A model generated the notes under the pieces. That model worked only from the letters and a program-made list of their open reading frames with translations. It was not told the origin of the DNA and made no database searches. DNA of 50,175 bases from positions 1 through 50,175 of the IMG/VR virus record IMGVR_UViG_3300037346_000160; one strand, 5' to 3'. The DNA is from a virus. Each line of letters opens with the position of its first letter. Positions within the stretch are counted from its first letter, which is position 1. This document shows positions 24,703 to 48,051 of the stretch, one piece after another. The position numbers and the translations under genes are program-made.

Positions 24703-25296
24703 TTAAAGAGTGTTCCATTTAAAAAATGGTCTATATGTTTCTAAGTCTATAACGTTTGGATCTACCCACCAGTCTTCATGTATTTCTCTTACTACTAAAG
24801 AATAACCAAGCGAGTCTAAAATTTCTCTTTGTGCATCCCTCATTGCTGTATTTCTCCAATACATATTTGCATCATGCTCAAAAGTAATAACAGAAAACCT
24901 ATACTTGTTCAGTGGAACAGAAATCAATCCGTGCAAAGAAAGGTAGGCATTTCCTTGAGGTCTTCCATTAAGTTTATATCCAGAGTCAATATCTACCTGT
25001 AAGTAGTCTATTTGATCTGGAAAATTATTTTCTTGAAAATATTTTATATAATCAAATTTTGTTGCATCACCAAGGACACATGGATTTTTTCTATTTTTTG
25101 AAACTTCTTTATGTAGTTCTGGGACTATCTCAAATGAAACACCAGACCAATCAAATTCATTCTCAAGTCTATAGGTATTACTTCCATTTATAGAGTGTGC
25201 AGCACCTAGTTCTACATAGTATCCATTTTTTTTATTATTTAACACATTTAAAACAAACTGCTCTTGCTCACTAAACTGTTGATGGTGCAAGGGCAT
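24703..25296 (-). CDS. FkbM-type methyltransferase
   Basis: A protein of 197 aa. The SAM-binding region is visible early (GYYVELGAAHSINGSNTYRL, residues about 25-44), followed by FEIVPEL and the acidic strand DYLQVDIDSG, as in FkbM-family O-methyltransferases that act on sugars or secondary metabolites. The ATG at 25296 is preferred over an upstream one because it lies one base after the stop of the preceding oxygenase gene. Position at the end of a run of oxygenase genes suggests it acts in the same pathway, perhaps methylating a hydroxyl or sugar added to a virion protein; this is inference. Confidence 0.75.
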   Translation of the reverse strand: MPLHHQQFSEQEQFVLNVLNNKKNGYYVELGAAHSINGSNTYRLENEFDWSGVSFEIVPELHKEVSKNRKNPCVLGDATKFDYIKYFQENNFPDQIDYLQVDIDSGYKLNGRPQGNAYLSLHGLISVPLNKYRFSVITFEHDANMYWRNTAMRDAQREILDSLGYSLVVREIHEDWWVDPNVIDLETYRPFFKWNTL

Positions 25297-25297
25297 T

Positions 25298-25927
25298 TTA
25301 GTGAATCCAGTGTTGTGGAACCATAATCTTTTCACCACTCTTAACTAGATGAGCAGTGTGATGGTATGGTGGTGATGGAGGAAACACAATGATGCTTCCT
25401 GCTTTTGGTTTTACTGCAAAAGTGTAGAATTTGTTTTTTTCTGCTTCTGCAAAATCTGCTTCTGGACTTGCATTTTGTAAAACTCCATCTGGTGAAGCAA
25501 TAGTAAAAGAAATTTCTCCGCCTTCGTAATCATCATTAAGATACATAACAAAAGAAACCTTTAGCCTTTCGTCACCTTCTTGTTGGTCAAAGTGTGCACC
25601 CATAAAGGTTCCTGGTTGATACTTTTTAATTGGATACTGAGGAAAGAGTTTTGGCTCATCCGTAATTCCTTGCGCCTTAGCATAATCTCTTGCTACATCA
25701 TCAAATGCTTTTTGCAAGGTTTCATAAATATATTTATTGTTTTCATCTGTTTCTGATGTTAAAGTAATGGTCTTGTCTGTTCCATAAACATATGCTTGAC
25801 CACTACAAGCCATCCATTCACCCCAGGGGTTCTTGTTGTCATCTTCAATTGCATTTATTAATTTCTTAGGATCCTCAATTACATTTGTGTAATAGTAAAC
25901 CTTTTCTTCAAGTATCTCTCTATTCAT
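25298..25927 (-). CDS. 2-oxoglutarate/Fe(II) oxygenase 1 (prolyl 4-hydroxylase-like)
   Basis: A protein of 209 aa with the double-stranded beta-helix pattern of prolyl 4-hydroxylase-like dioxygenases. The iron ligands are His112-x-Asp114 (MGAHFDQQ) and probably His190. Lys200, ten residues after the distal His, is placed to bind the 2-oxoglutarate carboxylate, where Arg is found in several of the paralogues. The shared signature YLNDDYEGGEI is at 129-139. The segment PPSPPYHH near the distal His is unusually proline-rich. It is the last oxygenase of a run of five in tandem. The substrate is unknown; peptidyl proline in phage fibres is a reasonable guess. Confidence 0.87.
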   Translation of the reverse strand: MNREILEEKVYYYTNVIEDPKKLINAIEDDNKNPWGEWMACSGQAYVYGTDKTITLTSETDENNKYIYETLQKAFDDVARDYAKAQGITDEPKLFPQYPIKKYQPGTFMGAHFDQQEGDERLKVSFVMYLNDDYEGGEISFTIASPDGVLQNASPEADFAEAEKNKFYTFAVKPKAGSIIVFPPSPPYHHTAHLVKSGEKIMVPQHWIH

Positions 25928-25935
25928 TATTCCCC

Positions 25936-26598
25936 CTAGTATTTATTGTTTTCGTAAAAGCCTTTAAGTTTTATAAAACCAACAAGAACATACCTAATTG
26001 GTCCTTCTCCAACATGTCTTACTCCGTGCTCATACTCTTCGTTTCCTGGAAAAATAAGAAGAGTTCCTGATTTTGGAACAGGCTCTACTCCTGGTTTATT
26101 TTTAAAAAACAAAGTTCCATCTTTATAGTCATCATTAAGATAAAGTATTGCTGCATGTCTAATTGATGGGTCTGTGTGTTGATCTGTATGGCTTTTTAGT
26201 TCAACTCCAGGCTGCATCCTTTGTAGTGTTGCAAAGCCAGAAAGATCTAATTGATCATCTGAAAGAGTAATTAATTTTTGAAGTCTTTCATGAATTGTTC
26301 TTGAAATAGCAAGATGACGAATGTCTAAGTTTTTGTCATACCAGTTATGTGTTATTTCATATTTTCCTTCAGCAACAAGGTTATCTACGTCGTCTCTTCC
26401 AAACTTTTCCATACAAAAGTTTTTTAAACTTTTTTTATATTCTACAGACCAATCTTCGTTTGTTGTTCCATTAATTAAAGATAGTATTTCTTCTAACTCT
26501 TCCTTTAACAAAAAATTTTCAATCATAAGGATCTCTCCTTCAAGGATTGTAGGGTTAAACCCTGCATCATCTAACTCTTTCTTTAAAAATATTTCCAT
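25936..26598 (-). CDS. 2-oxoglutarate/Fe(II) oxygenase 2
   Basis: A protein of 220 aa. Iron ligands are His137-x-Asp139 (KSHTDQHTD) and His191 (EEYEHGVRHV), with Arg202 for 2-oxoglutarate. The family signature appears as YLNDDYKDGTLFF, slightly divergent from the other copies. The N-terminal 120 residues are helical and unlike those of its neighbours, so substrate choice probably differs. It lies 5 bases from the preceding oxygenase gene and 8 from the next. All catalytic residues are intact. Confidence 0.88.
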   Translation of the reverse strand: MEIFLKKELDDAGFNPTILEGEILMIENFLLKEELEEILSLINGTTNEDWSVEYKKSLKNFCMEKFGRDDVDNLVAEGKYEITHNWYDKNLDIRHLAISRTIHERLQKLITLSDDQLDLSGFATLQRMQPGVELKSHTDQHTDPSIRHAAILYLNDDYKDGTLFFKNKPGVEPVPKSGTLLIFPGNEEYEHGVRHVGEGPIRYVLVGFIKLKGFYENNKY

Positions 26599-26602
26599 AG
26601 TA

Positions 26603-27346
26603 TTACTCCTCCACCTTATACTTATTGCCTTCAGAGTCTATTTTATACCCTTCTTTTAAAAGTTCTTGCCATTCTGCTCTTTCAATCTCTTGTTTTGCTC
26701 TTGTCTCTTTCATCTCTGCTGCCCAAGAGTCTCTTAGTTCTTGCGGGTACGCATTTTCTTCTCTATCATCCCAAAATGATCCTATTGTATACCTTACTCC
26801 ACTAGTAATAAGGGACACTTCGTGCATATTGTTAAATCCCCCGTCAAAAACGGCAAGCATTCCAACCTTGGGTTGAATTTCTATCTCTTGTCCTGGAAAC
26901 TTAAGAAGACCACCCTCAAAATCATCATTTAAATATAAAAATCCTGCATACCTGCTTCTTGTAAATGCCCCCGAGTTTCCTCCTGCATCTGTATTGTCTG
27001 AATGAATACGAGCATATGCACCTGGCTCCCATTTTTGAGTGTGATAACCAATTTTAGAAATTATTTTTGGATCTAGATCATGAACTGATGCAATTGCTAC
27101 AGGCATCATATTTTCAATATCTGAAAAAATAGTTGGTACTAGTCCTGCATCAATAACTTCTTGATCGTTGTCTTGTGGCAAAACAGAAGAATATGACTCA
27201 TAAAAAGAAATAGGCATCCAAGACATTTTCCCGTTTTCTGCTTGAGCATCTAAAGCATTTACAATTTTAGAACATTCATCTTTGGTTAAAAAGTCTTCGT
27301 AAACAACAATATCTTTTGTTATTCTATTTTTATTATTTAAATTCAT
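26603..27346 (-). CDS. 2-oxoglutarate/Fe(II) oxygenase 3
   Basis: A protein of 247 aa with the ligand set His115-x-Asp117 (YARIHSDNTD), His175 (NNMHEVSL) and Arg185. The signature is YLNDDFEGGLLKF. This copy carries a charged helical C-terminal extension of about 50 residues (ELRDSWAAEMKETRAKQEIE) that may be a partner-binding tail. Its start overlaps the upstream oxygenase stop by four bases (ATGA type), so translation is coupled. Catalytically complete; substrate unknown. Confidence 0.88.
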   Translation of the reverse strand: MNLNNKNRITKDIVVYEDFLTKDECSKIVNALDAQAENGKMSWMPISFYESYSSVLPQDNDQEVIDAGLVPTIFSDIENMMPVAIASVHDLDPKIISKIGYHTQKWEPGAYARIHSDNTDAGGNSGAFTRSRYAGFLYLNDDFEGGLLKFPGQEIEIQPKVGMLAVFDGGFNNMHEVSLITSGVRYTIGSFWDDREENAYPQELRDSWAAEMKETRAKQEIERAEWQELLKEGYKIDSEGNKYKVEE

Positions 27347-28200
27347 TGTATCCTCTTTTCTTTTTTTGCACTCATTTTATTTGGATGGTCGTCTCTAAAT
27401 TTTTGCATAATTTCTGGTTGCATCTTTTTCCAAACATCTTTGCCAAACTCTTCTTCTTTATCAAACCATTCATCAGATCCAACTTCATATTTCATCCAGT
27501 ACATTCTAGAAATATATTTGTTTTCTCCTTTTGCAGGCATGACTCCATGTAAGTATACCTGGCCTTCTTTAGTTAATATGTTTGGATGCCCTGAAGGAAA
27601 TAATAAAAAATCTCCTGCTTTTGGCTTATACATGTATGCTTCTCCATTTACAATAAAGTCAATCTCTCCGCCTTCGTAGTCATCATTAAAATAAGTCAAA
27701 GCAGTAATTGCAAACTTGTATCCTGGGCTTATGATTGGCTCTCTAATGTAATCAGAGTGATACGTCATAGCAAGTGGGCCATCTGTGTCTGTTTTATATC
27801 TTGCTATTGATGGACCGTTAGTGGTCCATTCGCTTGTAGGCTGACCGTTTTTTTTAATCAAATTTTTGTCTATGTTAAATTCTACATTATTTGTTTTTAT
27901 ATAATGTTCTGTTGCTATGTAAAAATTTTCAAATAGTTCTACGACTGCATTTTTTTGATCTTTTTCTTTTTTTGTACTTGTTTTTACTTTTTTAAATTCA
28001 TCGAGGCTCATGGTATGTGGATAGTCTTTAAATAACGGATTAAGATAATCTCCAAAAAAAGACCACTGTATCCATGGACTAATAAGGCCTTCGTTATTTT
28101 TATTTTTTAAAACTAAAAGAGTGTTGTGTATATCTTTAAAAAGATTTTTATATACAAAAACTTTAGGATATATTTCAATAAAATCTATGTCTTTATTCAT
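27343..28200 (-). CDS. 2-oxoglutarate/Fe(II) oxygenase 4
   Basis: The longest oxygenase of the set, 285 aa. Iron ligands are His148-x-Asp150 (MTYHSDYI) and His218 (VYLHGV); Lys228 takes the place of the usual 2-oxoglutarate Arg. The signature is YFNDDYEGGEIDF. There is an extra Lys-rich insertion at residues 65-85 and a C-terminal basic tail (NKMSAKKEKRIQ). The stop overlaps the next gene and the start shares a base with the previous stop, so it is part of the same coupled operon. Confidence 0.87.
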   Translation of the reverse strand: MNKDIDFIEIYPKVFVYKNLFKDIHNTLLVLKNKNNEGLISPWIQWSFFGDYLNPLFKDYPHTMSLDEFKKVKTSTKKEKDQKNAVVELFENFYIATEHYIKTNNVEFNIDKNLIKKNGQPTSEWTTNGPSIARYKTDTDGPLAMTYHSDYIREPIISPGYKFAITALTYFNDDYEGGEIDFIVNGEAYMYKPKAGDFLLFPSGHPNILTKEGQVYLHGVMPAKGENKYISRMYWMKYEVGSDEWFDKEEEFGKDVWKKMQPEIMQKFRDDHPNKMSAKKEKRIQ

Positions 28201-28874
28201 TATGGCTGTCTTTCCCCAGTGTGCTTAATTATCTCCCAAAAAAATGGGCATGTAAATCTTAATCCACTTTTAACTTCCGTTACTCCATGAATATAATTTT
28301 TGTCTCCTGGGAAAAAATATGCCGATCCCCTTTTTGGCTTAAACTGCACATTTTGTTTTGGAAAATATAATTCTCCGCCTTCGTAATCATCGTTTAAATA
28401 AAATAAACTAGAAATATCATAGTTTGGAAAATCATTAGGTGTTCCAGCATCTGGCCCTTCATGAAGTTCTTTGTCTGCATGAGGTTTTTGAAATTGTCCT
28501 GGAAGCCACTTGACAATTGTAGTTCCTGTAGGATTAACTTCTACTTTATAAAAATCTTCAACAATTGGCTTTAATCTTTCAAACAGTCCTGCAATTATCG
28601 GAGAAATAGATCGATCATTCTTGTCTAAGGTTGGCTGTGTTGCAACTCGATCTTTCCAGTAATCTGAATCATAAACGACTGTTCCATTTTCATTTACATG
28701 GCTTTGAGTTACATCCCAAATAATTAAAGATTTTGCAGCCTTTTCTAAAAATAACATTTCTTCTTCTGTCATAAAATTTTGTAATTCTACAATCATATCT
28801 TTGCTATCTCCAAACCACCCAGAGGGAGTCATTGAAGGCTTTCTTACTACAACAGATGCATTTATTTTTTCCAT
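28200..28874 (-). CDS. 2-oxoglutarate/Fe(II) oxygenase 5
   Basis: A protein of 224 aa. Ligands are His132-x-Asp134 (QKPHADKEL), His196 (NYIHGV) and Arg206. Signature YLNDDYEGGELYF. It starts the five-gene oxygenase run. The start codon has no Shine-Dalgarno, but TATAAT lies five bases upstream, so the five-gene mRNA probably begins at or very near this ATG (leaderless). Catalytically complete. Confidence 0.88.
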   Translation of the reverse strand: MEKINASVVVRKPSMTPSGWFGDSKDMIVELQNFMTEEEMLFLEKAAKSLIIWDVTQSHVNENGTVVYDSDYWKDRVATQPTLDKNDRSISPIIAGLFERLKPIVEDFYKVEVNPTGTTIVKWLPGQFQKPHADKELHEGPDAGTPNDFPNYDISSLFYLNDDYEGGELYFPKQNVQFKPKRGSAYFFPGDKNYIHGVTEVKSGLRFTCPFFWEIIKHTGERQP

Positions 28875-28879
28875 GTTTT

Positions 28880-28885
28880 ATTATA
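28880..28885 (-). promoter_or_regulatory. -10 box of the oxygenase operon, leaderless start
   Basis: GA-TATAAT on the minus strand, five bases before the ATG at 28874. It would drive the five overlapping or adjacent oxygenase genes plus the methyltransferase. Confidence 0.6.
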
Positions 28886-28901
28886 TCACAGGGTTAATGC
28901 C

Positions 28902-29357
28902 CTATAAAATCCTATTTATTTCTAGTTGTTTTAAAAATCTGTCTGAACTAAATCTCCAGTTATCTTTTGCAAAGGAAGTAACAATTTTTACACATGCTTC
29001 TTCATAGTCTTCTTTATTTAATTTATTTTTTAAAGAATGAAGCACTTCAACTATATCAATATAGTTTTGTCTAACAAAAGATGGATCTCCTGCATGGTTT
29101 CTTTTTAAAACTTTTTCAACCTTATTTCCCGATGGATCATATAAAGATACGGTTAAATAGTTTTTTGCAAAACCAGCGTCCTGATACATATCATATCCTT
29201 CTAAAGCCTGTTTTTCATTATCAAAAGAAATTATTGATCTAACTGGAGACTCTTCATCTCTAGAAACTGTTATCATATAATGACTAACTTTGCCTTCTTT
29301 AGCATTTTTGATATAATCGTTTACCATGTCATCATGCGTAATTTTTAATTCATTCAT
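28902..29357 (-). CDS. Hypothetical protein within modification island
   Basis: A protein of 151 aa that I do not recognise. It is mixed alpha/beta, soluble and charged, with a C-terminal helical part (LHSLKNKLNKEDYEEACVKI). No metal-binding or nucleotide-binding motif is seen. It shares one base with the upstream DUF6065-like gene and is followed by the oxygenase promoter, so it is the end of the upstream transcription unit. Confidence 0.7.
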   Translation of the reverse strand: MNELKITHDDMVNDYIKNAKEGKVSHYMITVSRDEESPVRSIISFDNEKQALEGYDMYQDAGFAKNYLTVSLYDPSGNKVEKVLKRNHAGDPSFVRQNYIDIVEVLHSLKNKLNKEDYEEACVKIVTSFAKDNWRFSSDRFLKQLEINRIL

Positions 29358-30061
29358 TACTTACCCTTATCTTTCACTGTCAGTTTTAAAGTTTTTACTT
29401 CATGGTACCCAAGAGGCTCTTGTTTTTCATTTACAGCATTTCTATACCAATCTGTCCAGTCTCCAGATGAGTTTAACTTTTGTGCTGCACTTCCATAGGA
29501 TATGTTTGCATCAATTCTTTTTCTATCTTCATCAGAATAATCTACGATAGTAATAGTACTGTTGTTTAGTTGACTTAAAGAAATAGGAATTATTGTTGCT
29601 ACTGGAGTTCCTGCTTTAATTACCGTTTTTTTATTAGGAATCTTTGCTTTAAGTGCAAGAGGAAGAGGATTATCATAAAATGACGTACTAATCAAAGATG
29701 ACATTGTTTCAAATTCATCAGTAAAGTAGTTAACTGGGTTAATCATAAACATACTAACATCTTGTTGTGTTCTAAATATTAGTCCTGTATCAATGCTTAT
29801 TGATGATTGACCTCTTCCAGAGTAAGCACTTAATGGACTAAATATTTCAACATGACTTGAACTTTGATCATTTACTCCATCCCAAATAAATTCTATGTCT
29901 TCTTTACAAGAAAGACTATAGCCAATAACATTTGCCTGGGTTACTGGAAAACACCTATAAGCATGATTTTCAGAAGTCTTGTCCATCCAGTCTCTTTTAA
30001 TAGACATTGGAGAAAGTTCAAAAATTGCTCCTGGCATTTTTTCAACAATTATGTCATACAC
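29357..30061 (-). CDS. DUF6065-like protein A
   Basis: A protein of 234 aa. The N-terminal pattern MKRDWMD-like (KRDWMDKTSENHAYRCFPV), followed by ANVIGYSLSCKEDIEFIWDG and later IKAGTPVATIIPI, matches my recollection of the DUF6065 family of uncharacterised bacterial and phage proteins. Function is unknown; the composition suggests a beta-sandwich. It is embedded between two oxygenase genes and overlaps both neighbours by one base. A second, more divergent copy lies at 30728-31504, so the pair has probably diverged alongside the oxygenases. Confidence 0.7.
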   Translation of the reverse strand: MYDIIVEKMPGAIFELSPMSIKRDWMDKTSENHAYRCFPVTQANVIGYSLSCKEDIEFIWDGVNDQSSSHVEIFSPLSAYSGRGQSSISIDTGLIFRTQQDVSMFMINPVNYFTDEFETMSSLISTSFYDNPLPLALKAKIPNKKTVIKAGTPVATIIPISLSQLNNSTITIVDYSDEDRKRIDANISYGSAAQKLNSSGDWTDWYRNAVNEKQEPLGYHEVKTLKLTVKDKGK

Positions 30062-30717
30062 TAGTTAGACTCTTCTACGTACATTTCTGGGGTATGAAAC
30101 TTTTTATTATAATCTAACATCGTGACAATTGAATATTTAATTCCAGAAGTGACTGGCATTGCTTGGTGAGCATACATGAAGTTTGATGGAAAGATGAATA
30201 GGTCTCCTGCTTCTGGCTTAACCTTTAAATCTTGAAGCCTAAAGTATAACTCCCCGCCATCATAGTCATCATTTATATAACCAACCAAAGATACAGTGCA
30301 GTTATAAGAAAACCCATGGTCGTGGTGCTCCATAAAGTGTTGTCCTGGCCCATATTTAATAAAATTAAACGCTTCCCAATATTGAAGATTATTAATGTTA
30401 TACATTCTTGAATAATCCTGAACGACTGGAAGTTTTACATCATACAGGTCCTGCCATAAAGACTGTAGATTTAGCCCTACAGGACTTTTGTCATGCTCTA
30501 TGTCTGTTTTTTTATATTTAAAATCATTGCAGTCTCTATAATCTGGCATCAACTGTTTATACCCAACATATGCAGGCTGCCAACTATAACCAGTTTCGTC
30601 TCCTTCTGGTTTTAGATTGGCCTCAATTCTTTCTATAACGTTAATTTCTTTTTTAATAACATTTTTGTAACAAAAAATACCATTTCCAAGATCTTGTTTT
30701 TCTGTCCAGGTTTGCAT
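30061..30717 (-). CDS. 2-oxoglutarate/Fe(II) oxygenase 6
   Basis: A protein of 218 aa. Ligands are His131-x-Asp133 (FMEHHDHG), His174 (MYAHQAM), with Lys184 as the 2-oxoglutarate binder. Signature YINDDYDGGELYF. It is closest to oxygenase 7: both share RDCxDFKYK, EAFNF(I/V)KY and YNCTVS. The ATG at 30717 is chosen because AAGGAA lies six bases upstream and it avoids a long overlap with the preceding gene; a possible ATG at 30777 lacks a ribosome site. Confidence 0.87.
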   Translation of the reverse strand: MQTWTEKQDLGNGIFCYKNVIKKEINVIERIEANLKPEGDETGYSWQPAYVGYKQLMPDYRDCNDFKYKKTDIEHDKSPVGLNLQSLWQDLYDVKLPVVQDYSRMYNINNLQYWEAFNFIKYGPGQHFMEHHDHGFSYNCTVSLVGYINDDYDGGELYFRLQDLKVKPEAGDLFIFPSNFMYAHQAMPVTSGIKYSIVTMLDYNKKFHTPEMYVEESN

Positions 30718-30727
30718 AATATATTCC

Positions 30728-31504
30728 TTATCTATATTCTCTTCTTGACCAGACTTTATTTTTATAAATACCGCCATCTGGTTGACGATAAAAGTTTGCG
30801 TTATCTACCATTTTACCATACATTTCTGACTGTGCCAAAATCTCAAGTTCATGACTCCAGTTTTCTCTTTTAAATGGAAGAACTTGCAGGTAAGGCGTTC
30901 CTGCTGGAATAGTTCCTTCCCAACCATCTGCAATAAAAAAAGGAAAACTTCCAAGAAGATGAACTTTATCTGAATCAACTACTCCTGTTGTATTTATAAA
31001 TGGAAGATCAAACCTATTCATGGGTGTCATAAATAAGGCACTGTATCCATCTGGTAACTCCAAGCCCCAATCAGCAAACCAAGCAAAATGATGTTTGTAA
31101 AATCCTTTTGGATGTTCAAATTGTGGCATTGGCGGTCTTTGAGTACAAAAATCTTTATATCTTAAATCTTCAATTTTTACATTAATTATTCCTTGATCAT
31201 TTTTAAAAAAAACTAAATCGCATGGAGTTTTAAAAACATACCCAGTTGAAAATGCATCCATGATTGCAGGACAGGCTTTCCATGTTGGAATCTTTCCATA
31301 GTCGTCAACAGTTCCTTCTTTAGGAAATGGACAAACCTCTTTTGGCGCTTTATAATATTCTCCATTTGGCATTTTAGCAAATCTGTCTGCATCTTTGTAC
31401 CATTCTGGAATAACGCTTTGAGTTGATGAGGGAACGCTGATACTTTCTTTATTTAACCAAGGCCTAAATGATCTAAATATTGCTAGATTAGGCTTTTCGC
31501 TCAC
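30728..31504 (-). CDS. DUF6065-like protein B
   Basis: A protein of 258 aa with a GTG start that overlaps the upstream stop by one base (TAGTG). IPEWYKDADRFAK near the N-terminus, CPAIMDAFSTGYVFKTPCDL in the middle and TIPAGTPYLQVLPF near 215 parallel protein A (IKAGTPVATIIPI). It belongs to a phage-associated family I know only as uncharacterised. Co-transcription and alternation with oxygenases 6 and 7 suggest a partner or substrate-handling role, which is inference. Confidence 0.65.
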   Translation of the reverse strand: MSEKPNLAIFRSFRPWLNKESISVPSSTQSVIPEWYKDADRFAKMPNGEYYKAPKEVCPFPKEGTVDDYGKIPTWKACPAIMDAFSTGYVFKTPCDLVFFKNDQGIINVKIEDLRYKDFCTQRPPMPQFEHPKGFYKHHFAWFADWGLELPDGYSALFMTPMNRFDLPFINTTGVVDSDKVHLLGSFPFFIADGWEGTIPAGTPYLQVLPFKRENWSHELEILAQSEMYGKMVDNANFYRQPDGGIYKNKVWSRREYR

Positions 31505-32217
31505 TACTTATGGCCTAGTTCATTTATGTCTGTCATAACAACAACACAGTACTTTGTTCCTGACTCCATAGGCAAAGATGCATGCTCATATATATAGTTA
31601 GAAGGAAAAATGGCAATGTCTCCAACCTTTGGTTTATACACTAGGTTATCTAGTCTTGGGAACTTTAAGTCCCCACCTTCGTATTCGTCATTAATATAGA
31701 TAACGGCAGACACAGTACAATTATATGCTGGGCCATGGTCTGCGTGTATATTAAAATGAGTACCTTTTCCTTCATACTTAACAAAGTTGAATGCTTCATA
31801 ATATACAACATTTATACCCCAATATTTTGCATAGTCGTCTATACAATACTTAAGTTTTTGATATATCTCTTCATGTAGATCTATTAACTCTGAGTTATGC
31901 TCATCTCTTGTTCCCAAATTTTCTTGCTTGTATTTAAAATCAACACAGTCTCTTGCTTTTTTAATTGGTGTGGTAGAGTTTGTTACTGTTGCTTCAGACC
32001 ACTTATATTTTTTATTTGTTGATAGGTTTGATTCAAGAATATCAATATATCTATTTGCATCATTTAATGAAAATGTGTTTTGATAAACATGTAGTCCTAT
32101 TCCTAAGTTTGATACAGAAACATTGTTGTCTAAAAATCTTTTGGCAACCCTATTTGACGCTGTTTCGGATCTATCTTTTGTAAACCACGGATTAACATTT
32201 TCATCATATATTGACAT
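31504..32217 (-). CDS. 2-oxoglutarate/Fe(II) oxygenase 7
   Basis: A protein of 237 aa. Ligands are His158-x-Asp160 (FNIHADHG) and His202 (YEHASL), with Lys212 for 2-oxoglutarate. Signature YINDEYEGGDLKF. It is a close paralogue of oxygenase 6. The ATG at 32217 is preferred to an upstream GTG because ATAGGA lies just before it. The promoter is a TGG-TATACT box that doubles as one arm of a terminator hairpin. Confidence 0.87.
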   Translation of the reverse strand: MSIYDENVNPWFTKDRSETASNRVAKRFLDNNVSVSNLGIGLHVYQNTFSLNDANRYIDILESNLSTNKKYKWSEATVTNSTTPIKKARDCVDFKYKQENLGTRDEHNSELIDLHEEIYQKLKYCIDDYAKYWGINVVYYEAFNFVKYEGKGTHFNIHADHGPAYNCTVSAVIYINDEYEGGDLKFPRLDNLVYKPKVGDIAIFPSNYIYEHASLPMESGTKYCVVVMTDINELGHK

Positions 32218-32252
32218 TTTATTCCTATCTCTATTAAAGTTTTCTAAATAAA

Positions 32253-32258
32253 AGTATA
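32253..32258 (-). promoter_or_regulatory. Extended -10 box inside terminator arm
   Basis: GTGG-TATACT on the minus strand upstream of oxygenase 7. It shares its bases with the 3' arm of the hairpin at 32254-32285. Confidence 0.55.
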
Positions 32259-32285
32259 CCACACCAAAACTCTGATGTGGTATAC
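32254..32285 (-). terminator. Terminator hairpin after PFF-repeat gene
   Basis: Perfect 10-bp stem GTATACCACA / TGTGGTATAC with a 12-base loop, followed on the minus strand by TTTTATTT. On the plus strand the hairpin is followed more distantly by TTTTTT, but no plus-strand gene ends here. Confidence 0.75.
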
Positions 32286-32303
32286 CTTACTTAGTTTTTT
32301 ATA

Positions 32304-33137
32304 TTATACGGCAATTGCGAAGGATGGGAAGAATGGGAAGTACGGTGGTGCAAAGTATGGGAAGTACGGTGGGAAGAATGGGAAGAATGGTGGAAAGAAT
32401 GGTCCAAAGAATGGGAAGAATGGGAAGAATGGGAAGAACGGGAAGAATGGGAAGAATGGTGGAAAGAATGGGAAGAATGGGAAGAATGGTGGGAAGAACG
32501 GGAAGAATGGGAAGAACGGGAAGAATGGTGGGAAGAACGGTGGAGTGGTAGTAACAGAGTTAGACGCTGGAGATGTTACAGAGTTTCCGTTTGCATTAAC
32601 TGCTACAACTGTATAAGTTTGTGCTGTGTTGCCTTCTTGTGTAACTACTACAGAAGTTGATGCAGTTGATCCGCTTTTTGCATCTGAAGATGCCCAATTA
32701 TAGGATGTAATTGCAGATCCACCATTTGCTGGTGCTGTCCAAGATACTGTATCTTGATTAACTCCTGCAGTTGCTGTTGGAGCACTTAGAGTTGCTGGAA
32801 CGGTTGTTACTGTTACTGCAGCAGAGGCAGCAGATGCAGCAGAAGTTCCTGCAGCATTAGTTGCTGTTACTGTAAATGTTGGTGTTGCTCCAGAAGCAAT
32901 TCCAGTAACTGTAATTGGAGATGATGCTCCAGTTGCAGTTTGTCCAGTGCTTGCTGTTACTGTGAACGATATTGCTACTGGAGATAGCGCAGGTAAAGAA
33001 AAGGAAACGGATACAGCACCATTATTAAAGGGTCTATTAGTTCCTACATTGCTTCCAGAAACACCTGTTGGTGCTAATGGTTCTAAAAAGTCATTTGACG
33101 CTTGGGACTTTCTGCCTATCTTTTTACCTGCTGCCAT
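32304..33137 (-). CDS. Fibronectin type III protein with C-terminal Pro-Phe-Phe repeat
   Basis: A protein of 277 aa. Two FN3-like domains are visible at about 25-110 (FTVTATNAAGTSAAS) and 113-195 (WTAPANGGSAITSYNW, YTVVAVNANGNS). From about 197 to 272 the chain is almost only Pro and Phe, with blocks of PFF and PPFF, a single Gly, and PYF variants near the end. FN3 domains are common on phage virion surfaces. The PFF tail is extremely hydrophobic and proline-rich; it could be a multimerisation or tip element and is an obvious candidate substrate for the neighbouring prolyl-hydroxylase-like enzymes (inference). AAAAGGAGA precedes the ATG. Confidence 0.8.
   Translation of the reverse strand: MAAGKKIGRKSQASNDFLEPLAPTGVSGSNVGTNRPFNNGAVSVSFSLPALSPVAISFTVTASTGQTATGASSPITVTGIASGATPTFTVTATNAAGTSAASAASAAVTVTTVPATLSAPTATAGVNQDTVSWTAPANGGSAITSYNWASSDAKSGSTASTSVVVTQEGNTAQTYTVVAVNANGNSVTSPASNSVTTTPPFFPPFFPFFPFFPFFPPFFPFFPFFPPFFPFFPFFPFFPFFPFFGPFFPPFFPFFPPYFPYFAPPYFPFFPSFAIAV
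32325..32545 (-). repeat. Tandem 9-base repeat encoding Pro-Phe-Phe
   Basis: On the plus strand, units GGGAAGAAT or GGTGGAAAGAAT with small variations are repeated about twenty times, encoding PFF and PPFF on the minus strand. Such repeats can change length by slippage or recombination. Confidence 0.9.
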
Positions 33138-33166: not shown

Positions 33167-34714
33167 TTATGCTGTTAAATCGCCGAAAACAACCCATGTA
33201 TTTGCTGCTCTTTTGAAAAGAGTTGCAGAAGACCATGTGGTTCTTAACTTTAATCCTGGTGTTGCGTTTACTGTTACTCCTACTGCACCTGCAAATGTTA
33301 CTTGTCCAGTTGATGTCTGAAGGATATCAAGGGAAGTTCCGATTGGAAAGTTTAGTGTTTCATCAGTTGGAATTGTAAGAGTCATTGCTGATCCTGAACT
33401 CATTTCCAGTAAATTATCTCTTTCAGTTAATCCTGAAAGTGTGTAAGAGCCTGTCTTTTGAATAATAGGAGTTCTTGATGGAACACCTTCTGCTGCTTGT
33501 GTACCGTCTGAAAATACAATACCTGCTGCTGGAAGTGTTACTGTTCCAGATGCTGTAAGATTTACTACCGTCGCTGTACCAGTAAGTGCTGGTGAAGCAA
33601 GCGGGGCCTTAAGTGCTAAATTATTTGTTAATGTTGTTGAGAAGTTTGCATCATTTCCAAGAGCAGTTGCTAACTCATTAAGAGTGTCAAGTGCTTCTGG
33701 TGAAGAGGCTACAAGATTTGAAACTGCTGTTCCAACAAAAGCTGTTGTAGCAACTTGTGTGGTTGCTGTTCCTGCAGTTGCTGTTGGCGCAGTTGGTACA
33801 CCAGTAAGGGCTGGTGATTCTAGTGGGGCCTTTAGATCAAGGGCGGAGTTAACTGTAGCAGTTAAGGCAAGGGCAGATGTATCTGAAATTCCATGAACAT
33901 TTGTTGTTATACTTTTATGTGCTGCAATTGCATCATCTGCGTAAGACTTTGTTGCAACTGTTGAGTCAATGTCATAGGCTAGGCTAGTAGTATTCCAATC
34001 AATTCCAACTCCTGCAAGACTTTCTTGGTCTACAGTTGCACTATTGATTGAACTTGAAATATCTGTAAGTGTTGCAAGTACTGATGTATCTAGAATGCCA
34101 TGGATATTTGTTGTTAAAAGATTATGAGCATTTAAGGCATCTGCTGCCTGACTTGCAAAATCTGCATCTGCTGCATCTGCGTAAGACTTTGTTGCAAGTA
34201 GTGCTGTATCTGCAATACCATGAATAGATGTTGTGTCTGACTGATGGGCTGATACTGCACCAGTAACTGAATCTTCAAGGTTTAATGCTGTAACAAGAAC
34301 TGCAGTATCTGCAATACCATGAACATCTATTGTTATACTTTTATGTGCTGCAATTGCATCATCTGCGTAAGACTTTGTTGCAAGTAATGCTGTATCTGGA
34401 ATACCATGAATAGATGTTGTGCTTGATAGGTGTGCACCTAAATCATTTCCAACTGTTACAAAGAAATTTGGGTCATCACCCATTGCTGCTGCTAACTCAT
34501 TAAGAGTGTTTAGAAGATCTGGGGCTCCGTCAATGAGTGCTGCTAATTCTCCTGCATTAGCAAAATATGTTAGGGCTGCCCAGTTTGATGAGCCATTACC
34601 CATCTTAAATTTACTTGTATCGGTTTCAAAACCAATTTCTCCTGCTGCTAATACTGGGTTTGCAGCCGTCCATTGTGCTGCAGTGCCTCTGCGCTGTTGC
34701 ATTCTTGTTGCCAT
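33167..34714 (-). CDS. Tail fibre protein with tropism-determinant-like N-terminus
   Basis: A protein of 515 aa. Residues 1-50 (MATRMQQRRGTAAQWTAAN, GEIGFETDTSKFKMGNGS) resemble the N-terminal domain seen on many phage fibres, including the major tropism determinant. The middle contains four or more copies of an IHGI-(A/P/L)-DT-(A/S)-(V/L)-L unit with KSYADDAIAAHKS, likely a repeating fibre shaft, and a TLNELA-A-(M/L)-G-(D/N)-D motif that occurs twice. The last 100 residues form a beta domain that recurs in the 42619-44007 protein (ending WVVFGDL / WVLFGDI). AAGGAGA precedes the ATG. Confidence 0.85.
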   Translation of the reverse strand: MATRMQQRRGTAAQWTAANPVLAAGEIGFETDTSKFKMGNGSSNWAALTYFANAGELAALIDGAPDLLNTLNELAAAMGDDPNFFVTVGNDLGAHLSSTTSIHGIPDTALLATKSYADDAIAAHKSITIDVHGIADTAVLVTALNLEDSVTGAVSAHQSDTTSIHGIADTALLATKSYADAADADFASQAADALNAHNLLTTNIHGILDTSVLATLTDISSSINSATVDQESLAGVGIDWNTTSLAYDIDSTVATKSYADDAIAAHKSITTNVHGISDTSALALTATVNSALDLKAPLESPALTGVPTAPTATAGTATTQVATTAFVGTAVSNLVASSPEALDTLNELATALGNDANFSTTLTNNLALKAPLASPALTGTATVVNLTASGTVTLPAAGIVFSDGTQAAEGVPSRTPIIQKTGSYTLSGLTERDNLLEMSSGSAMTLTIPTDETLNFPIGTSLDILQTSTGQVTFAGAVGVTVNATPGLKLRTTWSSATLFKRAANTWVVFGDLTA

Positions 34715-39143: not shown

Positions 39144-39171
39144 GGACCCCTCTTAGGAGGGGTTCTTTTTT
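39144..39171 (+). terminator. Rho-independent terminator of lysozyme-like gene
   Basis: ACCCCTC / GAGGGGT stem with a TTAG loop, extendable by two pairs, followed by TTTTTT. It overlaps the end of the convergent epimerase gene. Confidence 0.85.
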
Positions 39172-40184
39172 ATTTCTTGAAGTATCCAAGAGTATGTTTT
39201 TTCAATACCTTCTTTTAAAGTCATAGAATAATCCCAATTTAATTTTTCTCTAACTAAATCATTATTAGAGTTTCTTCCTCTAACTCCTAAAGGTCCAAAG
39301 ATATGATTTTTTTTCAAAACTTTGCCTTCAATGCTGCAAGCAATATCAACTAGCTGATTAATAGTAACCATCTCTTCAGAGCCAATATTAACTGGTCTAG
39401 TAAAGTTTGACTGCATAAGTTTTCTTGTTGCCTCTATGCATTCATCTATGTATAGAAATGAACGAGTTTGTTCTCCATCCCCCCAAATTTCTATAAAGCC
39501 CTCTGCCTGTATAACTTTTCTACACATTGCTGCAGGAGCCTTTTCTTTTCCACCATCCCAAGTTCCCTCTGGTCCATAGATATTATGATACCTAGCAATG
39601 GCTACGGGAATCTTGTTGTTTCTATTAAATGCTAAAAACATTCTTTCACTAAACAGTTTTTCCCAACCGTACTCACTGTCAGGATCTGCAGGGTATGCAT
39701 CAGACTCTTTAAGTCCAGGATTATTTACATCTAACTGCTTATAGTCAGGATACATACAAGCAGAACTTGAATAAAATATCTTGGTTTTATTAATGTTATA
39801 TTTTGTATTTAATCTTGACTGAGACCTTAGTAGGTTGAGGTTTATAAGTGCAGAGTTTTCCATAATTTGAGAATCATTGTCTCCAGTAAAAATATAACCA
39901 GCACCACCCATATCTGCTGCGAATTGATAGATTTCATCAAAAGAAGTTATTGTGTGATAAGGAACATTATAATAAAAGTTTCCGCTATATCCTTTAAACT
40001 GAATAACTTTTTCAACATTCTCGTATACAGATAAATCTCTTTCAATAAACTCGTCTGCTACAGATTCTGAAAAGTCTGGATGTTTTAAATCAACTCCTCT
40101 AACCCAGAATCCTTCTGATTTTAAACGCTTAACCATATGGTTTCCAATAAAACCACCTGCTCCTAAAACTAGTGCTTTCTTCAT
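39153..40184 (-). CDS. GDP-mannose 3,5-epimerase homologue
   Basis: A protein of 343 aa, a short-chain dehydrogenase-type sugar-nucleotide epimerase. The Rossmann motif is LGAGGFIG (residues 7-14). Residues match the plant enzyme family closely: SSSACMYP with Cys143, Tyr172-x3-Lys176 (EYGWEK), YHNIYGPEGTW, GGKEKAPAA with Lys215, and WGDGEQTRSFLYIDEC. This enzyme converts GDP-mannose to GDP-L-galactose and GDP-L-gulose. Compared with the plant form there is an insertion at about residues 60-85. The ATG at 40184 overlaps the glycosyltransferase stop as ATGA with AAGG upstream, so the two proteins are made together and probably form one pathway. Confidence 0.88.
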   Translation of the reverse strand: MKKALVLGAGGFIGNHMVKRLKSEGFWVRGVDLKHPDFSESVADEFIERDLSVYENVEKVIQFKGYSGNFYYNVPYHTITSFDEIYQFAADMGGAGYIFTGDNDSQIMENSALINLNLLRSQSRLNTKYNINKTKIFYSSSACMYPDYKQLDVNNPGLKESDAYPADPDSEYGWEKLFSERMFLAFNRNNKIPVAIARYHNIYGPEGTWDGGKEKAPAAMCRKVIQAEGFIEIWGDGEQTRSFLYIDECIEATRKLMQSNFTRPVNIGSEEMVTINQLVDIACSIEGKVLKKNHIFGPLGVRGRNSNNDLVREKLNWDYSMTLKEGIEKTYSWILQEIKKNPS

Positions 40185-41217: not shown

Positions 41218-41784
41218 CTACATCTTTAAAGTGTCGTCTTTTTTATTGGCCCTTATGTCTGTATATAAATATTGTGGACCATGCTTAAAAAACCAATGAT
41301 CTGGCTCTGTGTAAAAGAAAAATGCATTTGCTACAAGATTATTTTCTGGATTAGGAAATTCTTCTCTCCAGTGCTCTTGATCATTTCCATAAGACATGAC
41401 AGCATCATTTTCTTTTGGAGAAAACCTCTCACCCTCAACATAAAAATCCCATGGTGTTTTATGAAAAATAGTATAGTTTATATGATAAGTACAGGCATTA
41501 TCGTCTTTGTGTTTCCAAAGTTTTGCTTCTTTACCCTCGTAAATACTAATCAAGCACCAAGAAGGAACAAGTGTTTCAGATTCAAATTCTTCTCTTGCTA
41601 AAGGAAGAAGCATTTCATGATATCGTCTTAGTGGCTCGACGTTCTCAAAGTGTGTTTCATCCCAAATGGTCCATTGATGTCTGCCAAATCCAGCATCATA
41701 TGTGCTCTTGTCATTTGCCCATAGGTTCATTGAATAGTTTTGTATATTTTTATGCTCTTCTTCTGGTAATACTGTTTCTAACAA
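41218..41784 (-). CDS. Divergent 2OG/Fe(II) oxygenase-like protein (possibly frame-disrupted start)
   Basis: A protein of at least 188 aa. It has KHKDD with His92-x-Asp94, a possible distal His138 (DQEHWREEF), and strands LISIYEG and NAFFFYTE, compatible with the same double-stranded beta-helix fold, but the YLNDDYEGG signature is missing. The TTG at 41784 is the only in-frame start. An ATG at 41816 would extend it (to GGGSKIKNPYLLETV) if the run of eight G after it had nine, so this may be a sequencing error or a slippage-prone tract. It directly precedes the glycosyltransferase gene. Confidence 0.6.
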   Translation of the reverse strand: MLETVLPEEEHKNIQNYSMNLWANDKSTYDAGFGRHQWTIWDETHFENVEPLRRYHEMLLPLAREEFESETLVPSWCLISIYEGKEAKLWKHKDDNACTYHINYTIFHKTPWDFYVEGERFSPKENDAVMSYGNDQEHWREEFPNPENNLVANAFFFYTEPDHWFFKHGPQYLYTDIRANKKDDTLKM

Positions 41785-41845: not shown

Positions 41846-42082
41846 TTACCATTTTCCCAATGGGCACTTGGCTGCCTCAATCTTTGTTTTAAGAGCCATG
41901 AAACAACCACACTTCTTGCACTGCTTTGTTAGTTTTATAAGTTCTGGGCAGCCAAGGCATATGGACATTCTTTTCTCGGCCTCTTCTTCGGAAACCATGA
42001 CTGTATTTGGATTTATCATGTCCCAAGGCCTTACGTCACCTAGGTTTTCTTTGTACTGTTGCCAAGCAGATAGTTTTTTCAT
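41846..42082 (-). CDS. Zinc-ribbon protein A (78 aa)
   Basis: Two CxxC pairs (CLGCPEL... and CKKCGCFMALK) and a final CPLGKW. This CGCFM-LK and CP-x-x-KW pattern is common in small phage proteins of unknown function (DUF6171-like). A related protein is at 46876-47076 on the other strand. It probably binds one zinc. The N-terminal 35 residues are polar and non-conserved between the two. Confidence 0.75.
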   Translation of the reverse strand: MKKLSAWQQYKENLGDVRPWDMINPNTVMVSEEEAEKRMSICLGCPELIKLTKQCKKCGCFMALKTKIEAAKCPLGKW

Positions 42083-42095
42083 AATGGTCTATCTC

Positions 42096-42575
42096 TTAGG
42101 ATTCTTCTTGAGAAAAGTGTGTGCCGTTCCAAAAATATCCCTCTTCAACAACTTCTTCATCCCCAACCATAGACATCGCAAGGTCTCCTGAAAATGCTGC
42201 AGCAAACTTATCTCCACTTGGTGTATCTTCTGTAAACATAATAATAGAAAACACAACTCCATTGCTTAATAATGAAAACAGTCGGCTATGCCCATAGGCA
42301 TTGTGTGTAGGCATCCCACCATCGAATGCCCATTGCGACGGAAGTTGAGCAGGCAAAGAAAACTTACTTCCATCAAAAATAGAACCAATGGCAAGATTGT
42401 CCATATCTGTGGCATTCATGCCCACGATGTCGTTCTCAAGGATTGCAGATTGGATTCTGTCACTTCTGTCTTTTTGCACAGAATTGGACAGGTCGTATCC
42501 TCTTACATCAAAAACCTCATAGAGAGATTCATTTATCTTAGTAGATAGTGCATATCTTACATATGTGTTGCTCAT
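42096..42575 (-). CDS. Hypothetical protein (159 aa)
   Basis: Not recognised. A mixed alpha/beta acidic protein (SDRIQSAILENDIVGMNATDMDN) with a C-terminal SGDLAMSMVGDEEVVEEGYFWNGTHF. No transmembrane segment or cysteine motif is seen. AAAGGAGTGATAAA precedes the ATG. It is between the PVAPT fibre gene and the zinc-ribbon gene. Confidence 0.7.
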   Translation of the reverse strand: MSNTYVRYALSTKINESLYEVFDVRGYDLSNSVQKDRSDRIQSAILENDIVGMNATDMDNLAIGSIFDGSKFSLPAQLPSQWAFDGGMPTHNAYGHSRLFSLLSNGVVFSIIMFTEDTPSGDKFAAAFSGDLAMSMVGDEEVVEEGYFWNGTHFSQEES

Positions 42576-42618: not shown

Positions 42619-44007
42619 TCATATTGCACAACCATCGCATGTAGGTAAGTCACCAAACCCACCACAACCAGGGCAAGCGCTAGGTGTTGGGGCAACTGGT
42701 GTAGGAGCAACTGGAGTTGGAGTTGGTGTTGGAGTTGGGGCAACTGGTGTAGGAGCAACTGGTGTTGGGGCAACTGGTGTAGGAGCAACTGGTGTTGGGG
42801 CAACTGGTGTTGGGGCAACTGGTGTAGGAGCAACTGGTGCTGGGGCAACTGGTGTAGGTGCTACAGGTGTAGGTGCTACATAATTATAAGTAACAAGGCT
42901 TACATTTGCGCCATAGAAAGTAATTGTTCCTGCTGTTGGTGATTGTGAAGAAACTCTTCCATTATTTGCAGATGTTGCTCCAATTGTAGTGCTTCCACCA
43001 TTAGAATAGGCAAATCCATCATCAGATAGCAATGCTTGAGCAATACTTAGAGTAAAACCAACAGTATTAGGCACAGAAACTCCTGAAGCAACTGGAGTTG
43101 GAGTTGGTGTTGGTACTGGAGCAACTGGAGTTGGAGTTGGTGTTGGAGTTGGTACTGGAGCAACTGGAGTTGGAGTTGGAGTTGGAGTTGGAGTTGGAGT
43201 TGGAGTTGGTGTTGGTGTTGGTACTGGAGCAACTGGTGTAGGTGCTGGGGCAACTGGGGTAGGTGCTACAGGTGTAGGAGCAACTGGTGTTGGAGCAACT
43301 GGTGTAGGAGCAACTGGTGTAGGAGCAACTGGTGTTGGGGCAACTGGTGTTGGTGTTGGTGTTACGATAGATTCTTCAGCAATATCACCAAACAAGACCC
43401 ACTCATTAGTGGCAATTTTAATTAAAGTTGCTTTTCCATATCTAGCATCTATATAGGCTTCTGAATTTTTACTATTAAGAGTAACTCCATTAGACCCCAT
43501 AATGTGTATTCTTTCAGACCCAATATCTAAAAGATCATATCTATATCCTAAAGGAATTTCAACGCTAGAATTTAAGGGTATTGTTAAATGAGCTTCAGCA
43601 GAGGAATTAATAATTAAAGTTTTACCTGAATCTAATAACTCTAAAGTAAAGCTAGATGTTTTATAAACAAGAGATTGTTGAACTCCTAAAGACAATAATA
43701 TATTATTTATTTGAGTTTGAAGATTTGTATCTGCATCTTCTCTATCTTGTATCTCTGTATTAAGACCATTTTGTGCTATTATTGCGTTTGCACTATCTGC
43801 ATCTTTAAGTAATCTAATATACCCAGCGATTGATTTAGAGTTAATTCCATCTGCTACATTTAACTGGTCTACAGTTGGCAAAACCGTTGATCCATAATGA
43901 TAAAGTTTTAAAGCTTCTTGGATATCTGCAGCATCTTCATAACCAGGTATCTTGGTTGGGTATAACCCAGAGCCATTTTCCGTATCATCAATATATTCAG
44001 AAGCCAT
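42619..44007 (-). CDS. Proline-rich fibre protein with PASTA-like domain
   Basis: A protein of 462 aa. Residues 1-110 are helical. Residues about 110-210 are the beta domain shared with the tropism-type fibre C-terminus. From 213 to 307 and from 375 to 440 run PVAPT and PTPTP repeats. Between them, residues about 308-375 look like one PASTA domain (VPNTVGFTLSIAQALLSDDGF ... QSPTAGTI), which often binds peptidoglycan or its precursors. The last 20 residues hold CPGCGG and CDGC, possibly a zinc knuckle. A fibre that reaches the cell wall and binds it via PASTA is a plausible role. Confidence 0.82.
   Translation of the reverse strand: MASEYIDDTENGSGLYPTKIPGYEDAADIQEALKLYHYGSTVLPTVDQLNVADGINSKSIAGYIRLLKDADSANAIIAQNGLNTEIQDREDADTNLQTQINNILLSLGVQQSLVYKTSSFTLELLDSGKTLIINSSAEAHLTIPLNSSVEIPLGYRYDLLDIGSERIHIMGSNGVTLNSKNSEAYIDARYGKATLIKIATNEWVLFGDIAEESIVTPTPTPVAPTPVAPTPVAPTPVAPTPVAPTPVAPTPVAPAPTPVAPVPTPTPTPTPTPTPTPTPTPVAPVPTPTPTPTPVAPVPTPTPTPVASGVSVPNTVGFTLSIAQALLSDDGFAYSNGGSTTIGATSANNGRVSSQSPTAGTITFYGANVSLVTYNYVAPTPVAPTPVAPAPVAPTPVAPTPVAPTPVAPTPVAPTPVAPTPVAPTPTPTPTPVAPTPVAPTPSACPGCGGFGDLPTCDGCAI
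42680..42880 (-). repeat. Tandem repeat encoding Pro-Val-Ala-Pro-Thr (C-terminal block)
   Basis: A 15-base unit such as GGTGTAGGAGCAACT repeated about a dozen times, encoding PVAPT on the minus strand. Confidence 0.9.
43088..43370 (-). repeat. Tandem repeat encoding PTP and PVAPT (central block)
   Basis: GGAGTT and GGTGTT units (Pro-Thr) alternating with the 15-base PVAPT unit. Near-identical units suggest recent expansion. Confidence 0.9.
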
Positions 44008-44994: not shown

Positions 44995-45000
44995 ATTATA
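44995..45000 (-). promoter_or_regulatory. Extended -10 box made from Val-Val-stop, leaderless start
   Basis: GTGG-TATAAT on the minus strand, six bases before the ATG at 44988, and formed from the end of the collagen-like gene (…Ser-Val-Val-stop). Confidence 0.65.
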
Positions 45001-47281: not shown

Positions 47282-47471
47282 ATACCAATATAAGCCAGTA
47301 CTTGAAAAGATTAAAGAAATATACCTTGAAAATGCTCAAAAAGAATATATTCCAGGTTTTGATGTTGAGGCCAATGTAAGACTTGTCATCGAAGCAGATA
47401 CAGAAGAGTTAGCAGATCTTTCTCGTTATGGGTTTGTTGATATTCGGATGTGGGAATTGGATGAAAGTTAA
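47274..47471 (+). CDS. Hypothetical protein (65 aa), TTG start
   Basis: MPKYQYKPVLEKIKEIYLEN start; acidic second half (ADTEELADLSRYGFVDIRMWE). TTG is chosen because AAGGAGAACG lies just upstream and the gene overlaps the preceding stop by eight bases. No recognised domain. It overlaps the following oxygenase start by eleven bases, implying coupling. Confidence 0.6.
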   Translation: MPKYQYKPVLEKIKEIYLENAQKEYIPGFDVEANVRLVIEADTEELADLSRYGFVDIRMWELDES

Positions 47472-48051
47472 TCTTCTTTCCCCAGATATTTATGAAATTG
47501 AAGATTTTATAACTGTTGAAGAGCAAGAAGAAGTTTTGTCATACTGCCAGTCATTAGATGAACAAGAGTGGTGGCAATCTGAAGATGAAGAATATAAAAA
47601 AAGTTTTTTTTATGGAAAGCAAAAAATAGGTGAGTTGCCAGAAATTTTTAATAAAATAACAAACAGAACAAATATTCTTTTTTCTGATTTTTTATATATA
47701 GGTAGAGTCGCGTTGCAAAGACACCCAGGTGGAAACTTTATGCAGCCACATATAGACTATTGGAATAAAAAAGCAGAAGACTATGTTAGGTTTGGTCTTG
47801 TTATATATTATAATGATGAGTATGAAGGAGGGGAGATTCGATACCCTGAAATAAATTTAACACACAAACCAAAAGCCAGGTCTTTAGTTATGCATGGAGG
47901 AAACATATTGCATGGAACTAAAGAAGTTACATCTGATGGCTATAGATATTTTTCTACATCTTTTGTAAGAGGAAGTGTTAACAAACCAGTTATTTTAAAC
48001 CAAGAAACATTTTCTAACGTTGAACAAAGTGATGGATCTGCTTACCCTTAA
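47461..48051 (+). CDS. 2-oxoglutarate/Fe(II) oxygenase 9 (plus strand)
   Basis: A protein of 196 aa, the only oxygenase on the plus strand. Ligands are His97-x-Asp99 (MQPHIDYW), His151 (ILHGTKEV) and Arg162. Signature YYNDEYEGGEIRY. It is shorter than the operon copies and ends in a Ser/Asn-rich tail. The ATG at 47461 is used because the longer form would overlap the previous gene far more. It lies in the plus-strand small-gene block, so it may be expressed at another time in infection than the minus-strand oxygenases. Confidence 0.85.
   Translation: MKVNLLSPDIYEIEDFITVEEQEEVLSYCQSLDEQEWWQSEDEEYKKSFFYGKQKIGELPEIFNKITNRTNILFSDFLYIGRVALQRHPGGNFMQPHIDYWNKKAEDYVRFGLVIYYNDEYEGGEIRYPEINLTHKPKARSLVMHGGNILHGTKEVTSDGYRYFSTSFVRGSVNKPVILNQETFSNVEQSDGSAYP

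Follow-up and report, generated by a model that had tools for sequence, protein, structure and literature searches.

Why should a phage encode, side by side, seven different enzymes of a single oxygenase family? This question is raised by the IMG/VR virus record IMGVR_UViG_3300037346_000160, a linear record of 50,175 bases that was analyzed over its whole length and is referred to below as the window. The original prediction, made from the letters alone, had noticed an island of seven Fe(II)/2-oxoglutarate (2OG) oxygenases, here named ox1 to ox7. Our main finding is that this island is a conserved cassette rather than a local oddity, and that it is tied to a gene that had gone unmentioned, which adjoins ox7 immediately upstream in the window and encodes a tail-type protein with a tract of FFP and FFPP repeats (the FFP gene). 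The enzymes of the cassette probably form a line dedicated to hydroxylating a proline-rich fiber of the virion after translation, a substrate to which genetic linkage points.

The cassette belongs to a densely packed minus-strand operon, located between a class II ribonucleotide reductase gene (22579-24609) and tail fiber genes (from 33167), in which genes overlap or almost touch. The genes of this region, and one oxygenase gene lying apart from it, are the following.

33167..34714, minus strand: tail fiber protein, immediately upstream of the FFP gene (tail fiber PHROGs, best 1.2e-38)
32304..33137, minus strand: FFP-repeat tail-type protein of 277 amino acids, with N-terminal fn3-like domains (fn3 E 1.6e-4, below cut-off) and a C-terminal (FFP/FFPP)n tract; the proposed substrate
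31504..32217, minus strand: ox7, 2OG oxygenase of the Lys type and first gene of the cassette (PF13640 E 6e-11); its reading frame is open to 32262
30728..31504, minus strand: DUF6065-related protein b, with a predicted dUTPase fold (phrog_7084 E 3e-31)
30061..30777, minus strand: ox6, 2OG oxygenase, Lys type (PF13640 E 3.1e-13)
29357..30061, minus strand: DUF6065 protein a (PF19541 E 3.1e-25)
28902..29357, minus strand: p151, a small protein present in some cassettes (30/83 loci)
28200..28874, minus strand: ox5, 2OG oxygenase, Arg type (PF13640 E 1.2e-10)
27343..28200, minus strand: ox4, 2OG oxygenase, Lys type, a variable member of the cassette (PF13640 E 1.6e-7)
26603..27346, minus strand: ox3, 2OG oxygenase, Arg type (PF13640 E 3.1e-8)
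25936..26598, minus strand: ox2, 2OG oxygenase, Arg type (PF13640 E 1.2e-10)
25298..25927, minus strand: ox1, 2OG oxygenase, Lys type (PF13640 E 7.4e-11)
24703..25338, minus strand: final operon gene in the window, putatively FkbM-methyltransferase-like by motif only, with no Pfam match
47428..48051, plus strand: ox8, stand-alone 2OG oxygenase, Arg type, with an ATG also at 47461 (PF13640 E 1.2e-7)

Are these genes what they were taken for? Matches to PF13640, the Pfam profile for prolyl 4-hydroxylase-type 2OG-Fe(II) oxygenases, were judged against its curated cut-off, which was passed by seven minus-strand genes within 25298-32262 (E 1.6e-7 to 3e-13) and by the plus-strand copy that had been placed at 47461. 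The expected signature Y-x-N-D-(D/E)-(Y/F)-x-(G/D)-G and an intact HxD...H...R/K set were found in all eight proteins, ox1 to ox8, and the basic residue differs between copies as predicted, being Lys in ox1, 4, 6 and 7 and Arg in ox2, 3, 5 and 8. The start of ox7 is most likely the ATG at 32217, as previously assumed, because most orthologues begin there. The gene at 24703-25338 is no oxygenase, and a six-frame search of the window revealed no further oxygenase copy. Pairwise identity among the copies is only 18-28%, except for ox6 and ox7 (40%), and they are therefore old paralogues. The labels 'DNA endonuclease' and 'ferrochelatase' that PHROGs 2297, 274, 3531 and 2954 (the last matching ox9 only) attach to these proteins were discounted as misleading, because the Pfam matches, PDB comparisons and fold all agree on 2OG oxygenases; annotation pipelines will nevertheless spread them.

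The tie between the cassette and the FFP gene was assessed from both sides. On the enzyme side, 50 of the 51 loci having at least 1.8 kb upstream of ox7 carry a same-strand FFP gene within 3 kb; in the 51st (L056), the FFP gene lies farther upstream, behind inserted extra oxygenases. On the repeat side, a scan of IMG/VR returned at least about 120 rows, and linkage was counted among the matches listed: with the repeat DNA as sole query, oxygenases were present within 4 kb downstream in 74 of 82 evaluable FFP loci, a proportion that became 56/64 after clustering at 90% identity and 18/23 at 80% with single linkage. Collagen-like loci, scored identically as a control, had oxygenases in 6 of 59 loci and 6 of 58 clusters (Fisher p 6e-9 for FFP versus collagen-like linkage, on clusters). 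Among 11.3 million cellular contigs (about 85,000 cellular genomes) the repeat pattern was found once, on a phage-like contig of 5.3 kb carrying FFP - ox7 - ox6 - DUF6065 a - DUF6065 b - ox5.

The repeat itself is simple: 108 non-redundant tracts contain 1144 FFPP, 780 FFP and 118 YFP units, and Phe makes up 48% and Pro 41% of the tract region. The C-terminal ends of FFP proteins are variable, consisting of Cys-rich tails, weak intein/Hint-like domains, or 'SSERFKHSI'. By eye, the latter resembles the start of an S74 chaperone, and the weak intein/Hint-like end, seen in FFP proteins of L103, L112, L161, L189 and L201, suggests self-cleavage of the tail. FFP tracts also occur within other proteins in L183, L120 and L193, records that have no PF13640 gene; the repeat may be used unmodified there, or the enzymes may lie off the contig. 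A plus-strand open reading frame at 32275-32616, with GKNGKN repeats, was weighed as a possible collagen-like gene. It was discarded as probably not a gene, since it reads the FFP repeat in antisense and the conserved frame is the one on the minus strand.

How general is the cassette? Scanning IMG/VR with ox7 identified 348 viral contigs with a relative, from which 80 loci were fetched. The usual order is ox7 - DUF6065 b - ox6 - DUF6065 a - (p151) - ox5 - (ox4) - ox3 - ox2 - ox1, followed in many by a short-chain dehydrogenase and in some by an FkbM-like gene (present in 40/83 and 15/83 loci, respectively); relatives of ox8 sit inside some cassettes, and 20 related records hold 6-13 PF13640 genes apiece. 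In orthologue alignments (58-114 rows each for ox1 to ox7, 16 rows for ox8), the HxD pair of ox1 to ox7 shows no substitution at all, the distal His is substituted once (in ox1), and the basic residue undergoes only rare Lys/Arg swaps, the remaining exceptions being alignment gaps. In ox5, for example, H132 and D134 are invariant in 104 rows, and H196 and R206 are present in all except gapped rows; the HxD...H and basic residue of ox8 are likewise conserved in its relatives. Dozens of contigs thus retain both the gene order and the active sites, which puts the array well outside what chance could produce.

Phylogeny, which had been suggested as a check, gave each of ox1 to ox7 a clade of its own, retained across distant phages. 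The branching of phages is concordant between ox3, ox5, ox6 and ox7, as would be expected of a block inherited together. Separate clades and intact active sites support the view that ox1 to ox7 are specialized, non-redundant paralogues. The original prediction had spoken of a family specialized on several substrates or positions; the specialization stands, while several substrates now seem less likely than one main substrate acted on at several positions, because the whole cassette follows one gene.

The FFP gene and the oxygenases move between phage backbones as a unit. In the window, the unit is located between the tail fiber gene and the ribonucleotide reductase gene; in L066, L068, L079 and L082 it sits behind a collagen-like gene; and in three contigs from different samples (L078, L080 and L085) it lies near a portal and a capsid gene unrelated to those of the window (phrog_64 and phrog_1357, read in L078). 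In these L078-type phages ox1, 3, 5, 6 and 7 are still 80-85% identical to those of the window. As the cassette is found beside an unrelated head module, conservation of order within a single lineage explains the linkage incompletely. In L078-type loci, ox4 is replaced by a glutathione-peroxidase-like gene (PF00255; 13562-14335 in L078).

What reaction could such enzymes catalyze? Profiles of ox7, ox6 and other oxygenases of the window, compared with the PDB, have the prolyl 4-hydroxylase (P4H) of Bacillus anthracis among their first matches (E ~6e-12), followed by prolyl 3-hydroxylase 1 (P3H1), the lysyl hydroxylase LH3 and the P4H of PBCV-1. Structure prediction, another suggested check, was informative for ox7: its AlphaFold2 (AF2) model, with a predicted local distance difference test (pLDDT) score of 89.5, is a double-stranded beta-helix close to prolyl hydroxylases, which make up almost all of its top 50 Foldseek matches (E ~1e-9 to PHD2 and P4H). 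These include PHD2 with bound HIF peptide, an algal P4H with (Ser-Pro)5, P3H1 and the viral vCPH. By its model, then, ox7 has a prolyl-hydroxylase fold.

A second proline-rich protein of the window may represent a smaller version of the same arrangement, formed by the four genes below.

42619..44007, minus strand: second proline-rich repeat protein, with PTPVAP repeats and a PASTA-like domain (PASTA E 2.3e-4, below cut-off); the proposed substrate of ox9
42096..42575, minus strand: protein after the PTPVAP gene, whose relatives come after FFP genes
41846..42082, minus strand: short protein rich in Cys, encoded between the PTPVAP gene and ox9; elsewhere a relative often occurs between FFP and ox7
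41218..41784, minus strand: ox9, probable divergent 2OG oxygenase, with an invariant HxD...H and no canonical basic residue

The ninth oxygenase had been predicted at 41218 as a divergent member. Its family does keep HxD...H invariant, but without a basic residue at the usual position; the window protein has no Pfam match, and the ox9 profile matches neither ox1 to ox8 nor, in a comparison with the PDB, any oxygenase there. Weak 2OG-type matches appear in few of its homologues (E 0.009-0.04, with E 0.009 in 2/16). A divergent 2OG oxygenase is the probable assignment. Among 55 evaluable PTPVAP loci, an oxygenase lies downstream in 51 (ox9 in 48, a canonical one in 23), and 17 proteins combine both repeat types. 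Beside ox9, positions 39153-41215 encode an NAD-dependent sugar epimerase together with a possible glycosyltransferase that has no Pfam match.

The remainder of the window contains the head and tail module of a tailed phage, with matches to portal and capsid PHROGs. The major capsid protein is about 40% identical to that of Streptomyces phages, and the ribonucleotide reductase about 61% identical to those of Mycobacterium phage Gaia and Actinomycetia phage DSL-LC01; on account of these resemblances an actinobacterial host is likely. The tail region also encodes a collagen-like protein (GPQGPAGKDG..., 44996-45727), whose gene in several relatives immediately precedes the FFP gene and the cassette.

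Two genes of the cassette are not oxygenases. The AF2 model of DUF6065 b (pLDDT 89.8) is predicted with confidence to have a dUTPase fold (Z 10.1 against dUTPase VIA, 119 residues, 2.6 A), the Foldseek E value being only 5.6e-3. Among dUTPase motifs I-V, the alignment shows only a motif-III-like GVVDSD in copy b, which is absent from copy a. As a guess, DUF6065 proteins might be trimeric chaperones or scaffolds; a literature search on DUF6065 found nothing. Haloarchaeal HF1-like viruses have a DUF6065 protein (PF19541/phrog_7084) with about 25-32% identity over 75-91% of the protein (L206 is among the loci viewed); in HF1 the gene has no oxygenases nearby, whereas cassettes of the window type have two copies each.

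From these data we infer the substrate, the modified residue, the virion location of the FFP protein and the benefit to the phage, as follows. The FFP-repeat protein (32304-33137) would be produced first, its C-terminal (FFP)n/(FFPP)n tract forming a polyproline-II-like rod. The seven enzymes of the prolyl-hydroxylase family would then hydroxylate the tract, before or during virion assembly. Their targets would most likely be prolines that differ in position or repeat context (FFP versus the two prolines of FFPP, or C3 versus C4), with one or more enzymes for each. Proline is the first candidate because the fold and sequence relatives are prolyl hydroxylases; Phe is also possible. Optional accessory genes (short-chain dehydrogenase, FkbM-like, glutathione-peroxidase-like) might provide further chemistry on the hydroxyls or protect against by-products. 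The benefit could be rod stiffness, solubility or host binding.

Several points weigh against this proposal. Six of nine FFP-bearing records checked have no oxygenase, three of them being fragments of less than 9 kb, and no clear correlation was seen between cassette content and FFPP/FFP/YFP composition. Phage tail modules often keep their gene order even where the genes are not functionally tied, and the loci are not independent because the viruses are related (hence the 18/23 at the strictest clustering). Collagen needs only a few hydroxylases, so that seven for one simple repeat exceeds expectation, and DUF6065 so far has no place in the hydroxylation model. The PTPVAP support is weaker, because its loci form only 6 clusters, of which 3 are positive.

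How do other explanations fare? A more extreme variant, which we regard as tentative and rather unlikely, is hypermodification resembling that of ribosomally synthesized and post-translationally modified peptides: at least seven hydroxylases and dUTPase-fold scaffolds, sometimes with a dehydrogenase and an FkbM-like enzyme, would act on (FFP)n to yield a dense, position-specific polymer of hydroxyprolines and possibly beta-hydroxy-phenylalanines, a new structural material moving between phages as one unit. It is unlikely that the enzymes hydroxylate mainly some other protein, be it a different fiber, the phage's collagen-like protein or a protein of the host, EF-Tu for example. A bacterial P4H does act on EF-Tu, its structure (4iw3) being among the fold matches of ox7, and the same phage has a collagen-like gene that directly precedes the FFP gene and cassette in some relatives; yet the invariable neighbor is the FFP gene, oxygenases are rare near collagen-like loci at large, and enzymes acting on a host protein would have no need to travel together with a fiber gene.

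Auxiliary metabolism, in which the oxygenases alter host metabolism (for example 2-oxoglutarate levels) and the fiber site is merely tolerant to insertion, is how cyanophage 2OG genes have been interpreted in print (PMC9602691), and cargo genes do accumulate in tail regions. We consider it improbable here: seven enzymes this divergent, each with its own conserved active site and in a fixed order, are more than the consumption of 2-oxoglutarate requires, and the FFP gene stays with the block where the remaining genome differs. Tailoring of a sugar or metabolite on the fiber or host envelope would fit the short-chain dehydrogenase and FkbM-like genes that many cassettes contain or are followed by, and the epimerase and possible sugar-transferase-like neighbor at 39153-41215; it is very unlikely, given that the dehydrogenase and FkbM-like genes are optional (40/83 and 15/83 loci), that no glycosyltransferase is recognized within the window's cassette, and that ox7 is closest, in sequence as in fold, to hydroxylases of peptide prolines and lysines. 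Finally, TET/JBP or AlkB-like oxidation of nucleic acid to give modified phage DNA, hinted at by one weak Tet_JBP match (E 0.0011, below cut-off), by Tet-like enzymes low in the profile match list and by several 'DNA endonuclease' PHROG labels, can practically be dismissed, as prolyl hydroxylases score far above Tet (E 6e-12 versus 3e-4) and the cassette follows a fiber gene, not replication genes.

Which parts of hydroxylation of a fiber by a multi-enzyme operon have precedents? In eukaryotes, proline-rich repeat structural proteins such as collagen and extensin are each served by several dedicated 2OG hydroxylases (P4H, P3H1 and LH3; algal P4H on (Ser-Pro)n). The phage system differs in having neither a Gly-x-y nor a Ser-Hyp repeat, in being phage-encoded and in being organized as an operon. 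The PBCV-1 enzyme vCPH (PDB 5c5t), likewise virus-encoded, and other P4Hc-family enzymes of PF13640 have the fold and the HxD...H...K/R site in common with the cassette enzymes. Here, as known from sequence and model, seven paralogues form one operon behind a non-collagen FFP fiber; a PBCV-1-type system needs Gly-x-y collagen repeats, whereas the coupled gene has FFP repeats and collagen-like loci rarely occur with the enzymes. The prolyl hydroxylase of PBCV-1 has been characterized, according to a citation within PMC9301287.

The original estimate of one or two such genes in many phages proved too modest, since PF13640 matches numbered 7, 8 and 13 in the three T4-like cyanophages that were examined. 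One phage of this type, S-SCSM1, has 24 2OG genes (PMC9602691), three of its oxygenase genes being just downstream of tail fiber genes. The cyanophage oxygenases belong to the same superfamily, but they share only about 25-38% identity with those of the cassette over part of the protein and are spread over about 180-230 kb, and neither DUF6065 nor an FFP gene was found in T4-like cyanophages. A near-identity DNA search of cultured phages with the window gave no match, and 50,697 cultured phage records contain no close ox7 or ox5 and no FFP protein. The open-access literature yielded no prior account of phage prolyl hydroxylation of tail fibers, and together with the collections searched no FFP-repeat fiber, no coupling of one to a multi-oxygenase operon and no DUF6065 in that setting. 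Many oxygenases per phage were thus already known from cyanophages; the coupled operon is new. What is novel is an unusual organization and a new candidate substrate for virus-encoded modification of the prolyl-hydroxylase type.

The row of about seven prolyl-hydroxylase-like enzymes, conserved in freshwater phages behind an FFP protein, suggests that the phage modifies its own fiber and offers an answer as to what such enzymes do for phages, and the strict coupling to a proline-rich fiber gene provides a concrete, testable candidate substrate. If the proposal is true, it would show that a protein of a phage virion is modified after translation by several enzymes, would reveal a new fibrous repeat, FFP, and would supply a ready set of position-specific peptide hydroxylases. 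These genes would then shift from 'auxiliary metabolism' to virion biology.

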